DNA from: Micromonospora inositola | GTDB lineage: Bacteria > Actinomycetota > Actinomycetes > Mycobacteriales > Micromonosporaceae | Direction: 5' to 3' | NCBI RefSeq assembly: GCF_900090285.1 | Contig: NZ_LT607754.1 | Span: 744,001 to 808,000, forward strand | DNA length: 64,000 nucleotides | Part shown: positions 16,306 to 21,331 of the stretch, piece by piece | Layout: each line of letters starts with the position of its first letter | Numbering within the stretch: the stretch's first letter is position 1 | Notes under the pieces: generated by a model | Database searches by the model: none | The model's input: the letters and a program-made list of their open reading frames with translations, nothing else | What the model was told of the DNA's origin: nothing | Position numbers and translations under genes: made by a program

Positions 16306-16425
16306 TCCCGGTGGTCCAGCAGCGGTACGGCGGTCCCCTCGTTGAACCGGCCGAGGCCACCATCACCGTCGCTGGCACTGCGGCGCGGTGCGGGTCTGAA
16401 GCCGACGGGGAAGGGGACGGAACTG

Positions 16426-16859
16426 GTGTTCGAGGGCTTCGAGGAACTGGACATCGGCACCATGGACACGACCATCCACGGACGCCGGGGCGGCGACGGC
16501 CCGCCGGTCCTGCTGCTGCACGGCATGCCCGAGACCCACCTCATGTGGCACCGGGTCGCGCCGCGACTCGCGGAACGGTTCACCGTGGTGGCCACCGACC
16601 TGCGCGGCTTCGACGACAGCGGGAAGCCGCCGAGCACACCGGACCATGCCCCGTACAGCATGCGCCAGGTGGCCCGCGAGCAGGTGGAGGTCATGCGGCT
16701 GCTGGGGTACGACAGGTTCGCCGTCGTCGGGCACGACCGCGGCGCGCGCTGCGCGTACCGGATGGCGCTGGACCACCCCGACACGGTGACCCGCCTCGCG
16801 GTGCTCGACATCGTGCCCACCGGCGACGCGTTCGGCCGCGCCGACATGGACTTCAGCGT
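16426..16859 (+). pseudogene. 5' half of haloacetate dehalogenase-like alpha/beta hydrolase, split by IS607 element
   Basis: GTG at 16426 opens VFEGFEELDIGTMDTTIHG, then oxyanion-hole motif LLLHGMPETHLMWHRVAPRL and nucleophile elbow VVGHDRGARCAYRMAL, where the Asp of GHDRGAR (about residue 104) is the nucleophile of fluoroacetate/haloacetate dehalogenases. The hydrolase sequence stops after ADMDFS at 16857 and continues at about 19515. The IS607 element between them removes function. The two halves join in frame if a single codon is restored, so insertion was clean. Confidence 0.85.
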
Positions 16860-16860
16860 C

Positions 16861-17020
16861 TCTGGTTTCCTATGTGATCCTCGGCAAGTCGGGCATCCGG
16901 CCGGCGTTACCGTTCCGGTCGGTGACCGGGGTGGCGTGCACGTGGCGGTGGAAGCCGCGGCCGAGGACTGCTCCGCGCACCCGGTGAGGGTGTCGGGGAG
17001 CGGTGGTGGGAACCGTGTGC
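16861..17020 (-). ncRNA. Predicted TnpB guide RNA (omegaRNA/reRNA) scaffold at the element's right end
   Basis: TnpB-associated RNAs derive from the 3' end of tnpB and run to the element boundary, with the guide taken from flanking DNA. Only 9-12 nt lie between the tnpB stop (16870) and the boundary, so the scaffold must overlap the tnpB 3' coding end. The region has GC-rich self-complementary segments (for example CCGGTCGGTGACCGG at 16914-16928). The guide would be transcribed leftward from about 16859 into the hydrolase gene. Extent is approximate; inferred from known TnpB biology. Confidence 0.4.
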
Positions 17021-18858
17021 GGCACCTGGGGAACCGGCCCTTTCGGGTTGGTCTCCTGGGGTGTCCGTCCCGCCGGACGCTTGCCGGCAGATCCCAATGG
17101 GGAGTCTGCCGGGGCGGGAACCTGCCGTCGCGAGGGCAGCAGGCGTGTAGTCTTGACCGTTGCAGGTCGGACCTGCTTCGGGGTGGGTACCGTCTTGCGC
17201 CGGTCTCGCGGCGGCCTGATCGTGGCGGCTTGGGTTGGTCGACGCGGCCGGTGACGGACCGGTGTATCGGTGGCGGTCCGGATCGCGGCGTTGCCGTTAC
17301 GGTCGCGGCGGGTTTTGGCCTGGTTGGCCAGGCCTCGGGCGGCGATCCGCTGCGCCGCGGCGTGGTCACGGTCCATCGACATGCCACACGAGCAGGTAGC
17401 CCACCGGTACCCGGCCACGCGCCCCTGTGGTGTTTTGACGTGCTTGACCGCGCCGCCGCAGCGGGGACAGCCCGACGATGTGCCACGCGCCGGAACAGTG
17501 ATGACGGCGATGCCTACCTTCGCGGCGAGGTGGGCGATGGCGGTGAACACGGTGCCGCGCACCGCACCAGACAGTCGCCGGTTGAGGCTGCGTGACCGAC
17601 CACCCGCCTCGAGCGTGGCGAGGTTCTCGACGTAGATCACGGTGGCGCCGACCGCGGTCGCGTGGTCGACGAGCCACCGCGCCGACGACCAGGCAAGAGC
17701 CTTGTTGAGATGCCGGATCCGGGCGCACACCGCCGAATGCTCGGCCTCCAGGAGGACAAGCTTGCCAGTCAGGGCCGGGTCGGCGGGGGCGTCGGCGGGC
17801 CGGCCGTCACGCAGCCGCGTCAGATGGTCGGCTTTGGTTTTGAGGTGTTCGCGGTGGCGCCGTAGTCGCACCAGTTTCGCCGACACGCCGGTCGCGTCGA
17901 ACCGCAACGGGCGCCCCCGCACCACCACGGAGCCGTCCTGGTCGAGGTCGGCCACGGTCGCGGTCAGCAGGGTGTTCACCCCCCAGTCGACACCAAGCGC
18001 ACGAGTGTGGCCGTCCAACGGCGGCCGGGTGTGCGGGGTCTGCCAGGGCAGGTCGACGCGAACCTTGCCATCGCCGGGCCGCAGCGTCGGGGTGCACACC
18101 TTCACCCCGGCGGGCACCGTCGCCGGCAGCACCACGTCGACATCGTGCCAAACCCAGTCGCGGTATGAGGCCGGCGCTGCACATATGGGAAGCTGCGCCC
18201 ACACCCGTACGACGCGGTCGTCGACCCGGTCGACGACGACCTGTTGCCGGTCGGCCGCCGCGAGGCTCACCTGCCGCGCCGCGGCCGGCGGACCCTCCAA
18301 CTCACACAGGCCTACCGGGAACCGGCCATACACGCCGATGTACCCGGTGATCTGTCGGGTCCGGTTGCGGATCGTGGCGTTATCAGTTCCCGCCGGTAGC
18401 GCCGCCCGCAACGCTGACCATTCGTCATCGGTCCGGGCGAACGGATCGGCCGGCCACGTGGCCAGCAGCGCGGCAACGATTCCACGACGGTGGCACGCCA
18501 GACGCAGAGCCCGGGCGGCTTCTTCCTCGGCGATCCGACGAACCCGGTCCGACACCACCACACCCGCCGACGGCACGGCACACCAGCCGAGCCGGCGCAG
18601 CGCCATCCACCCGCTGCTCGGCAGACGCCTCCCATCAGGGCCAACCCCACCGGCAAGCTCCGCCATTTCGGCATTCGACCAGTGCGCCGCGATCACCTCG
18701 TCGGCCATGCCCCGAACCAGGTCTGCCAGCCACCCCACCCGTTCGGCGAGCACCCGCCCCGATACGGGCACCCGCACGCCGGGCACACCGGGCTTACCGC
18801 CGCACACCGCACGGTACGCGGTGCACGTCGCGATCGACGTCAACACCGAGCCAGCCAC
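16870..18858 (-). CDS. tnpB: RNA-guided endonuclease TnpB (IS607 type) with long C-terminal extension
   Basis: 662 aa, GTG start sharing one base with the tnpA stop (TAGTG). RuvC-I LGVDWGVNTLLTA (D291), RuvC-II VIYVENLATLEAG (E411), zinc ribbon CPRCGG at 464-469 with CSCG at 489-492, RuvC-III SMDRDHAAAQRI (D496/D498). All catalytic positions are present, so it may be active. TnpB is usually around 400 aa; here about 200 N-terminal residues precede typical core elements and a basic, Pro/Arg/Thr-rich tail of about 158 residues follows RuvC-III. The tail looks low-complexity and probably reflects selection on the overlapping guide-RNA scaffold. It cleaves targets matching its guide and favours element retention. 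Confidence 0.9.
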   Translation of the reverse strand: MAGSVLTSIATCTAYRAVCGGKPGVPGVRVPVSGRVLAERVGWLADLVRGMADEVIAAHWSNAEMAELAGGVGPDGRRLPSSGWMALRRLGWCAVPSAGVVVSDRVRRIAEEEAARALRLACHRRGIVAALLATWPADPFARTDDEWSALRAALPAGTDNATIRNRTRQITGYIGVYGRFPVGLCELEGPPAAARQVSLAAADRQQVVVDRVDDRVVRVWAQLPICAAPASYRDWVWHDVDVVLPATVPAGVKVCTPTLRPGDGKVRVDLPWQTPHTRPPLDGHTRALGVDWGVNTLLTATVADLDQDGSVVVRGRPLRFDATGVSAKLVRLRRHREHLKTKADHLTRLRDGRPADAPADPALTGKLVLLEAEHSAVCARIRHLNKALAWSSARWLVDHATAVGATVIYVENLATLEAGGRSRSLNRRLSGAVRGTVFTAIAHLAAKVGIAVITVPARGTSSGCPRCGGAVKHVKTPQGRVAGYRWATCSCGMSMDRDHAAAQRIAARGLANQAKTRRDRNGNAAIRTATDTPVRHRPRRPTQAATIRPPRDRRKTVPTPKQVRPATVKTTRLLPSRRQVPAPADSPLGSAGKRPAGRTPQETNPKGPVPQVPHTVPTTAPRHPHRVRGAVLGRGFHRHVHATPVTDRNGNAGRMPDLPRIT

Positions 18859-19466
18859 TACCCCACGTCCCTAGCCGCGGCTGCCAGCAGTCGACGCTTG
18901 GCCTCACGGGACCGCAGGCCGTACATCCGGCCGGCGAACGTGGCCACCAGGGACATGAAATCGTCCAGGAGCTCCTCGACCCCACCGGCCGAACCCTTCG
19001 GGTGAAGCACCTCGACGCTCACCCCGTCACGACCGAGTAGAGCCGTCAGCCACACCGTGCCGAACCGGGCCAGCCGGTCCCTGTGCGTGACTCTTACTAC
19101 GGTGAACTCGCCGGCCGCCGCGCCCTTCAACAGCCGGGTCAGCCCCGGCCGATTCTCCCGCAACCCAGACGCCCTGTCCTTGAACACTGCCACTACCTCG
19201 GCGGCAGCGGTAGCCCGCAGCTCCGCCTCCTGGGCCACCAGCGACGTCTCCCGGCCAGCCGCACCCGACACCCGCACATACAACGCCTCACGACGCGGCC
19301 GTTCCACCTCACCGCGTCCAACAAACGCGTCAAGCAACGCAGAGTCGAATCGACGCTCCCGACCCACCCACGTCACCGCCACACGTCCCTCATCCGCCCA
19401 CCGGCGCAGGGTCACAGGATGCACACCGACGTACTCGGCAGCCGGACCCAGGCGCAGCAACGACAT
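18858..19466 (-). CDS. tnpA: IS607-family serine recombinase TnpA
   Basis: 202 aa, ATG at 19466. N-terminal MerR-like HTH (LLRLGPAAEYVGVHPVTLRR, WADEGRVAVTWVGRERRFDS), then the resolvase domain with catalytic serine in ALYVRVSGAAGRE (S67), ending in a helical GLRSREAKRRLLAAAAR tail. This is the standard IS607 transposase, which acts as a synaptic tetramer without target duplication. A TATTAT box a few bases upstream within the element end suggests a near-leaderless transcript. The stop overlaps the tnpB start by one base. Confidence 0.93.
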   Translation of the reverse strand: MSLLRLGPAAEYVGVHPVTLRRWADEGRVAVTWVGRERRFDSALLDAFVGRGEVERPRREALYVRVSGAAGRETSLVAQEAELRATAAAEVVAVFKDRASGLRENRPGLTRLLKGAAAGEFTVVRVTHRDRLARFGTVWLTALLGRDGVSVEVLHPKGSAGGVEELLDDFMSLVATFAGRMYGLRSREAKRRLLAAAARDVG

Positions 19467-19514: not shown

Positions 19515-19962
19515 GCACGCCCTCGGGTTCTGGCTCTGGTCGTTCCTCGCCGCTCCCGAGCCGGTGCCCGAACGACTCGTCGCCCAGGCCCCGGAGGTCA
19601 TCGTCGACTACATGCTCGACTCGTTGTCCGAGGTACCGGACGCCTTCCCGACCGCCGTCCGGGCGGAGTACGTGGCGAAGCTCGGTGCCCCGGACACCGT
19701 CCACGCCATCTGCGAGCAGTACCGGGCGGCCGCCGGGCTGGACTACCAGCACGACGAAGCCGACCGCGGCAAACGGCGGATCCAGTGCCGCGTCCTGGCG
19801 CTCTGGAGCCACGCCGGCCCCGTGGCGAGCTGGTATGAGCCGCTGGAGGTGTGGCGGGCCTGGGCCGATCAGGTGGACGGGCGTCCCATCGCGGCCGGGC
19901 ATTTCCTGCCGGAGGAGGCCCCCGACGAGACGACCCGGCAGCTTCTCGCCTTCCTCACCTGA
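19515..19962 (+). pseudogene. 3' half of the split alpha/beta hydrolase
   Basis: Continues the hydrolase after the IS607 element: HALGFWLWSFLAAPEPVPER, DSLSEVPDAFPTAVRAEYVA, QCRVLALWSHAGPVASWYEP and the catalytic-His region GRPIAAGHFLPEEAPDETTR. WLWS..AAPEPVPERL is the cap region typical of haloacetate dehalogenases. No start signal of its own; the TTG at 19513 is created at the junction. The stop at 19962 is about 10 bp before the IS110 element. Confidence 0.85.
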
Positions 19963-19972
19963 CAGTGAGGAT

Positions 19973-20201
19973 GTGGGGGTGGGGTCACCCGGTCTGGTCT
20001 GACTCACCGCCTGACCGACGATGTTGTCCTGCTGAGGATCCGTCGACCGGTTCCGGGTGGCCCCGTTCCTGCACGTCACTGGCAGGGGCGTCGTGACCTG
20101 ATAGGAGCCTGTGCAAGAGGCCCCGCCACTGTCCTGTCCGCCCGTCCCAGCGGTGCGTGCCGACCCTGTTCGGTGCAAGCGAAAGGGACGACGGTTCCAG
20201 C
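19973..20201 (+). ncRNA. Predicted IS110 bridge RNA region
   Basis: IS110-group elements encode a structured bridge RNA between the left end and the recombinase start. This 229-nt gap has no ORF. It contains TGAGGATCCGTC at 20033-20044, matching the reconstructed target, and ATAGGAGC at 20101-20108, repeated near the right end at 21266-21273 and possibly relating to donor recognition. RNA ends and folding were not computed. Confidence 0.6.
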
Positions 20202-21260
20202 ATGACAGCCAAGAAGCGCAAGGTCACCGGCGGCGTCGATACTCACGGCAGAACGCACCACGCGGCCGTAGTTGACCAGACCGGACGTGTACTCGGTGAT
20301 CAGCAGTTTCCCGCCACTGCGGCCGGTTACCAGCAGCTGCTGGTGTGGCTTCGCACCTTCGCCACGGTGGTGAAGGTCGGTGTCGAGGGCACCGGCGCCT
20401 ACGGCGCGGGCCTGGCCCGCTACCTGAGCGGCCAGAAGATCACCGTCGTCGAGGTCGACCGACCAGACCGTAAGACCCGCCGGGTGAAGGGCAAGTCCGA
20501 CCCGATCGACGCGCTCGCCGCCGCCCGCGCCGCGCTGTCCGGACAAGCGTGCGGCGTACCGAAGACCCGAACCGGACCGGTCGAGGCCATCCGCGCGCTG
20601 CGGGTAGCCCGCAACGGCGCGGTCAAGGCCCGCACCGCCGCGATCAACCAGCTCCACGGTCTGCTCACCGCCGCACCCGAGCCGCTACGCGCCGAACTCG
20701 CCGGCTACTCAGGCGCTGCCCTGATCAACCACTGCGCCGCCCTGACCTACGACGACACCCGGCTCAGCGACCCCGCCGAGGCCACCAAAGCCTCCCTCGC
20801 CGCGATCGCCGCCCGGATCCACGCCCTGACCGCGGAGATCACCCTCGCCGACCAGCGACTACGTCCCACCGTCGCCCGCACCGCCCCCACCCTCAGCGCC
20901 CTGTTCGGTGTCGGACCCGAGGTCGCCGGTCAACTCCTGGCCACCGCCGGCGACAACCCCGACCGGCTGCGCTCCGAAGCCGCCCTGGCCCACCTCTGCG
21001 GCGCCGCACCCATCCCCGCCAGCAGCGGACGCACCGACCGCCACCGCCTCAACCGCGGCGGCGACAGAGCCGCGAACAACGCGCTGCACACGATCGTGCT
21101 CAGCCGCATGCGCTACGAACCCCGCACCCGCGCCTACCTCGACAAACGCACCAAACAAGGCCTCAGCAAAAAAGAGATCATGCGATGCCTCAAGCGCTAC
21201 GTCGTCCGCGAGGTCCACACCGCCCTACTCGCCGACTTCACCGCCCTCGACACCCCTTGA
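20202..21260 (+). CDS. IS110-family DEDD transposase/recombinase
   Basis: 352 aa, ATG at 20202. RuvC-like DEDD domain: TGGVDTHGRTHHAAVVD (D13), VGVEGTGAYG (E62), KSDPIDALAAARAAL (D100, D103). C-terminal Tnp20 domain: LFGVGPEVAGQLLATAGDNP, LCGAAPIPASSGRTDRHRLN with the Ser-rich catalytic region, and RGGDRAANNALHTIVLSRMR. Length and motifs are intact, so it may be active. It is guided by the bridge RNA predicted upstream. Confidence 0.95.
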   Translation: MTAKKRKVTGGVDTHGRTHHAAVVDQTGRVLGDQQFPATAAGYQQLLVWLRTFATVVKVGVEGTGAYGAGLARYLSGQKITVVEVDRPDRKTRRVKGKSDPIDALAAARAALSGQACGVPKTRTGPVEAIRALRVARNGAVKARTAAINQLHGLLTAAPEPLRAELAGYSGAALINHCAALTYDDTRLSDPAEATKASLAAIAARIHALTAEITLADQRLRPTVARTAPTLSALFGVGPEVAGQLLATAGDNPDRLRSEAALAHLCGAAPIPASSGRTDRHRLNRGGDRAANNALHTIVLSRMRYEPRTRAYLDKRTKQGLSKKEIMRCLKRYVVREVHTALLADFTALDTP

Positions 21261-21331
21261 CATCCATAGGAGCATCCTCGCGGAGCGGGATCCGTCCGCC
21301 CGGACAACGCCCTCGGGGGGACGATGGGTAC

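Follow-up and report, generated by a model that had tools for sequence, protein, structure and literature searches.

An IS110-group element of Micromonospora inositola with a predicted bridge RNA matching its own insertion site behind a hydrolase stop codon

The closest described systems are IS621 with its bridge RNA, and ISEc21 and ISMch6 with their seekRNAs. According to Durrant et al. 2024 (PMC11208160), the bridge RNA of IS621 and the IS110 group is a non-coding RNA from the left end of the element, in which a left target guide (LTG) pairs with the bottom strand of the target and a right target guide (RTG) pairs with the top strand; a promoter is re-formed across the circle junction, and the circle is inserted without a scar at a short core, which in IS621 is CT, the targets being REP elements. 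Siddiquee et al. 2024 (PMC11187229) describe an IS110-type seekRNA in which the bottom-strand match comes first, and already report guide retargeting between relatives.

The element described here resembles IS621 in its left-end non-coding RNA, in an LTG and an RTG predicted to match opposite target strands, in a promoter that would be re-formed across the circle junction, here by sequence only, and in scarless circle insertion at a short core. Unlike IS621, it has one shared C as core and a nearly fixed C(T/A/G)GAC guide block that often coincides with gene stops. With ISEc21 and ISMch6 it shares the IS110-type order of strand matches and natural retargeting via three guide bases, but its hosts and targets are others, and the available portions of PMC11187229 report no link to stop codons. 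The mechanism is known; no stop-codon-guided IS110 element, and so no precedent for a stop-codon-anchored guide, was found in the literature searched, which included the accessible parts of PMC2516522 and PMC11187229 and left subscription journals mostly outside its coverage.

In the 64,000-nt stretch of DNA that was analysed (contig NZ_LT607754.1, positions 744,001 to 808,000; hereafter the window), positions 19964–21276 very probably constitute an IS110-group element in which the guides of a left-end bridge RNA match the element's own insertion site behind the stop codon of a hydrolase gene. This reading is built on what is observed in silico about the element's termini, the guide–flank covariation, the geometry of the loop and the host origin of CTGA at other sites. 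The left end of the element would encode a bridge (seeker) RNA, and the recombinase would have inserted the circle at the C that immediately follows the hydrolase gene's TGA stop codon. The predicted target-binding loop matches the element's own insertion site, which makes both guide and target visible. What the likely guide matches is the final stretch of the neighbouring gene, stop codon included, so that the element sits just behind that gene. The element and its surroundings comprise:

19956–19963, + strand: left target CACCTGAC, host-derived, read in L119 and L121 without the element
19960–19962, + strand: hydrolase TGA stop codon, within the left target; the equivalent CTGA is host sequence at other insertions
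19963: core C, left copy; C in 80 of 81 left ends
19964–21276, + strand: IS110-family element, 1313 bp including one core copy, placed by paralogue breakpoints, homologue ends and empty sites
19967–19972, + strand: −10-like hexamer GAGGAT, within TGAGGAT; spacing to TTGACN 17 bp in 75 of 81 sites and 18 bp in 5 of 81
20202–21260, + strand: IS110-family recombinase, 352 aa (PF01548, E 2e-26; PF02371, E 1e-16)
21257–21262, + strand: −35-like TTGACA in the right end; TTGACN in 80 of 81 right ends
21266–21275, + strand: right terminus ATAGGAGCAT (left donor), the right terminus in homologues
21276–21280, + strand: core C (right copy) and right target CCTCG, complementary to the RTG; C in 81 of 81 right ends

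The recombinase scores 177.4 bits (cut-off 140) against the NCBIfam model NF033542, 'IS110 family RNA-guided transposase', and its description as a DEDD (RuvC-like) recombinase with a C-terminal Transposase_20 domain follows from this model, PF01548 and PF02371, not from residue alignment. These family models and the mapped termini bear out the IS110 assignment made in the original prediction. The left end (19964–20201) is 238 nt long and the right end runs for 16 nt beyond the recombinase stop codon, counting the core; by the features tested, a long left and a short right end, the element falls into the IS110 group. No long subterminal inverted repeats joining both termini, which would point to the IS1111 group, were present among the 25 longest of 171 inverted-repeat pairs. 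A search of PDB sequences returned a sole hit at E 0.15, which is not a relative. Against the NCBIfam model for the TIGR-Tas endonuclease, the recombinase (20202–21257) scores a weak 26.4 bits, below the cut-off of 100.

Insertion sites were compared over 141 loci, namely the window, 80 loci fetched from a genome collection (the best 80 of 127 encoding a relative), and 60 stretches fetched among the matches listed by a family search with matches in at least 96 of 354 genomes. Dropping 23 loci without recognisable ends left 118, of which 97 passed the end filter; 87 remained with the required 12-nt flanks and after exclusion of L023, L041 and L204, and these represent 81 distinct sites. In the closest homologues, DNA similarity begins at about 19958–19961 and stops at about 21276. 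Copies that share a genome, such as L017/L019, L031–L033 and L010/L047, diverge on the left at CTGAC or a few bases before it and on the right, where flank is available, at or within one base of GGAGCATC; some other paralogue pairs have breakpoints further out. The right ends of homologues terminate at GGAGCAT|C. The ends had been proposed at 19973 and 21291, and the comparison with other copies, set beforehand as the refuting test, contradicts them: paralogue breakpoints, homologue tables, covariation and empty sites all give other ends, and the empty sites, the paralogues and the 81 distinct insertion sites, the window included, move the left end by 9 nt and the right end by 15 nt.

Empty sites define the status of the CTGA at the left end. 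At L191, all ten relatives that span the join align gaplessly if CTGA is counted as host DNA and show a 4-nt gap if it is not (an eleventh, L249, stops short of the junction), and at L233, nine of nine relatives span the join with no gap nearby when CTGA is kept. The two closest of nine L229 relatives read CAGCAA-CTGA-CCCGC, the remaining seven reading CTGA (five, some with adjacent gaps), TTGA (one) or CGAG (one). CTGA is in place in three of nine L188 relatives, two others aligning with gaps and four not spanning the site; at L180, where the right flank is unalignable, L258, one of five relatives inspected, reads GACGC-CTGAC. Since the empty sites keep CTGA as host sequence, the simplest placement of the shared core is the C at 19963 and at 21276, a single base with no large target duplication, in line with the gapless empty sites of L191 and L233.

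If CTGA at the left end instead belonged to the element and insertion deleted about 4 bp of target, the circle junction would read GGAGCATCTGACAG, whereas the favoured ends imply GGAGCAT-C-AGTGAGG. Such a reading accommodates the left ends, C(T/A/G)GAC in nearly all 81 sites, and the L191 relatives, none of which has CTGA at the site (CCGA in five, CGGA in one, CCAA in two, CGAA in two). We nevertheless regard it as improbable, because CTGA occurs in uninterrupted DNA in five of nine L233 relatives (CTCA in three, GCCA in one), because the two closest L229 relatives and L258 read as given above, and because the window's gene would lose a stop codon that its relatives carry there. An element starting at CTGAC with a target xxx|Cyyy was dropped, the empty sites of L191 being 4 nt longer than the join, and the target was refitted as xxx-CTGA-C-yyy; the reading frame of the joins could be classified at 9 of 81 sites, the three frames counting 3/2/4, and the xxx|Cyyy reading put the window itself out of frame.

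Both flanks of the window's own site are present in 9 of 29 loci, and all nine have the hydrolase TGA there. L119 and L121 read CACCTGAC at the window's left site, their right side having diverged, and the nearest relatives carry CACCTGAC or GGCCTGAC on the left. None of the relatives compared has exactly the window's empty site. The right side has diverged in the nearest ones (92–93% identical over the gene), and the right target of the window is therefore known only from the occupied copy. Under the favoured model, the empty site would have read TTCCTCACCTGA-C-CTCGCGGAGC.

The junction of an excised circle would re-form a promoter, TTGACA-17-GAGGAT. TTGACN and GANNAT are jointly present in 79 of 81 sites, and their spacing is 17–18 bp in 80 of 81.

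The left end contains the elements of a candidate bridge RNA:

20001–20003, + strand: proximal helix of the target-binding loop, 5′ strand; pairs with 20042–20044 and is invariant in the 35-sequence consensus
20008–20015, + strand: LTG CGCCTGAC, which matches the left target except for one G·T wobble, at 20009
20017–20020 with 20025–20028, + strand: distal helix of the target-binding loop; four pairs, two invariant and two changed on both sides
20034–20037, + strand: RTG GAGG, complementary to CCTC at 21276–21279; U20033 could wobble with G21280
20042–20044, + strand: proximal helix, 3′ strand (GTC), from the consensus fold of 35 left ends
20101–20108, + strand: probable left donor guide ATAGGAGC, identical to 21266–21273, by inspection only
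20127–20131, + strand: probable right donor guide CACTG, reverse complement of CAGTG at 19963–19967, by inspection only

The window strand at 19964–20150 folds with −91.1 kcal/mol (z −2.3); in the minimum-energy structure of this single sequence, parts of the loop region are paired, and in the centroid the region is open. The consensus fold of 35 left ends places the LTG on the 5′ strand and the RTG on the 3′ strand of one internal loop, and for 10 of its 25 pairs at least one sequence differs on both sides, as is seen among the further pairs that lie beyond the proximal helix. The predicted target-binding loop has guides complementary to opposite target strands, strongly for the LTG and more weakly for the RTG. 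By anatomy, not by experiment, the left-end RNA would be a bridge RNA, which is presumably made and guides this recombinase. The donor guides at 20101–20108 and 20127–20131 we infer from the sequence, the conservation of both candidates being too high for covariation. In the window, no match to an Rfam family attained the gathering score.

The target guides were located by a blind scan, in which each column of the left end was compared with 12 flank positions per side over the 81 distinct sites. Left flank positions −1, −2 and −3 equal 20010, 20009 and 20008 in 79, 74 and 79 of 81 sites (shuffle means 22.9, 37.0 and 51.3; z 14.8, 12.1 and 9.3), the next best unrelated pair reaching z 5.0, and 20012 agrees with 19960 in 80 of 81. 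On the right, flank position +2 is complementary to 20036 in 68 of 81 sites and +3 to 20035 in 56 (z 7.8 and 7.7); the RTG signal is clearer than background yet much weaker than that of the LTG, since unrelated right-side pairs reach z 6.0, and position +4 with 20034 (44 of 81, z 4.2) does not rise above this background. All four RTG bases, one of which is invariant, match in 31 of 81 sites, and at least three of them in 58. The guide block reads CTGAC in 60 of 81 sites, CAGAC in 15 and CGGAC in 6. The window, whose LTG has one non-Watson-Crick position, is among the 10 of 81 sites lacking a full triplet match. Outside the scan, 43 of 52 extra loci dropped out because they lacked ends or a guide motif or were duplicates; the nine others match at left −3, −2 and −1 in 9, 7 and 9 cases and at right +2, +3 and +4 in 8, 6 and 2.

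Shared ancestry rather than guiding could also produce such covariation, given that the sites are related, that the scan shuffles are uncorrected for kinship and that unrelated column pairs reach z 6.0. Three observations make this very unlikely. Most flanks are different host loci. With one site taken per guide triplet, 16 of the 19 show a full left match (mean 1.0 and maximum 7 over 10,000 permutations). L017 and L019, which lie in one genome and are 97% identical, differ in guide and flank together, their guides GGG and GAT each fitting its own flank.

In the window's own genome, a left-end relic (L005, G000:C1:6501226-6501322) has guide CGG and flank CGG, and L002 (G000:C1:4062112-4062477) is an 89%-identical right-end fragment of a related IS110 element. 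Members of a CAGAC-guide subclade (L013, L014, L205–L214 and L216; RTG ATCCCG) repeatedly lie between GGGTCG(A/G)CGG-CAGAC to the left and CGGGAT to the right, and so appear to have a separate, repeated target. In one Streptomyces genome, L024, L026, L027, L043, L054 and L076 are units of about 2.6 kb that have the same outer ends and carry extra DNA between the left end and the recombinase.

The original prediction had assigned the guide differently. It joined TGAGGAT (19966–19972) to CCGTC (21292–21296), took the resulting TGAGGATCCGTC for the restored target, considered the GAT ahead of both junctions compatible with a shared core, and read a contiguous guide at 20033–20044. The letters are as it gave them, and in its favour TGAGGATCCGTC occurs exactly, and only once in the window, at 20033–20044. 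However, TGAGGAT lies within the element, as the left breakpoints of paralogues fall on CTGAC or slightly ahead of it, and CCGTC is host DNA, beginning 16 nt past the core, as right ends part at or within one base of GGAGCATC; because the true core C is at 19963 and 21276, the reconstructed 12-mer is a chimera of element and host DNA. The TGAGGATG-like segment belongs to the element in homologues, paralogues break ahead of it, and right ends stop at GGAGCAT|C. The proposed geometry is also unlike that of the described bridge RNA, whose target halves, according to PMC11208160, are not one contiguous copy.

Nor does the match at 20033–20044 exceed chance when the ends may shift. If they are allowed to move within 20 nt, a junction-spanning match of at least 12 nt to the element's own left end arises for 36 of 162 control junctions built from host flanks only (81 sites at two offsets). 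The true ends, given the same freedom, yield one in 62 of 81 sites, a count raised by genuine guides and by element DNA within the search range. The 12-mer is found in five of 364 fetched loci, all five being the window's own place, and is absent from all nine relatives with both flanks (of 29 loci; 3.2–3.4 kb each). Its overlap with the RTG, from which 20033–20044 extends into the 3′ strand of the proximal helix, is accidental. An element at 19973–21291 with a 12-mer guide was therefore rejected on the paralogue and homologue ends, the control junctions and the absence of the 12-mer from relatives, and we consider it virtually excluded. What survives is the expectation that the element's own guide and target are visible in one piece, in that a left-end loop matches the insertion site, although not as the 12-mer; GAT does stand at both junctions, but the core is C.

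The guide block coincides with gene ends. Among the 60 CTGAC sites, 38 have clear sense coding upstream, 8 antisense and 14 unclear, as called by a simple composition rule, not annotation. A TGA in frame with upstream coding is a stop codon, and in 35 of the 60 sites (35 of the 38 with clear sense coding) the TGA is the host gene's in-frame stop. Among 1066 background CTGACs (626 sense-coding), drawn from 400 kb of three genomes of one genus plus the window, 144 are in-frame stops, giving a Fisher p of 9e-15 with related copies treated as independent and insertion sites from several genera. This count omits the 15 CAGAC sites, all unclear, and the 6 CGGAC sites (1 stop, 4 unclear, 1 antisense). 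IS900 targets sites near translation starts. According to the accessible part of PMC8141618, this element of Mycobacterium avium subsp. paratuberculosis is, like the present one, an actinobacterial IS110-family element rarely found within coding sequences.

The coincidence with stop codons might arise solely through loss of harmful insertions, not through guide design. Insertion within genes is harmful, and background CTGACs outside clear coding are already stops in 144 of 347 cases. Insertion sites outside clear coding nevertheless exceed this, with 35 of 49 (Fisher p 1e-4, related copies being treated as independent and the background coming from one genus). In addition, 79 of 81 sites have C or G at guide position 20008 and all 81 have C at 20011, a composition that fits third codon positions, so that the guide itself resembles a gene end. 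We judge loss of harmful insertions as the sole cause to be a serious possibility that falls somewhat short of an even chance; it explains part of the excess, perhaps all. Guide design would mean that an actinobacterial IS110 clade has evolved a bridge RNA whose left guide is a gene end (last sense codon, TGA, C), so that the element homes to the first base behind stops and switches host gene via two or three last-codon bases, a guide-encoded site that avoids harm. For this proposal we see the case as evenly balanced.

The 81 distinct sites and 19 guide triplets form a natural guide–target set for an actinobacterial branch of bridge recombinases. They suggest self-guidance to stop codons as a simple host-sparing route for an RNA-guided element, and point to compact recombinases that usually land just behind genes.

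The hydrolase gene carries a further insertion in the window. Host DNA at 16390–16867 and 19521–19963 is contiguous in L119 and L120, and 16870–19466 holds an IS607-type recombinase gene and a TnpB-like gene that split the hydrolase gene, so that, with the IS110 element, two kinds of RNA-guided mobile element occur in one gene.
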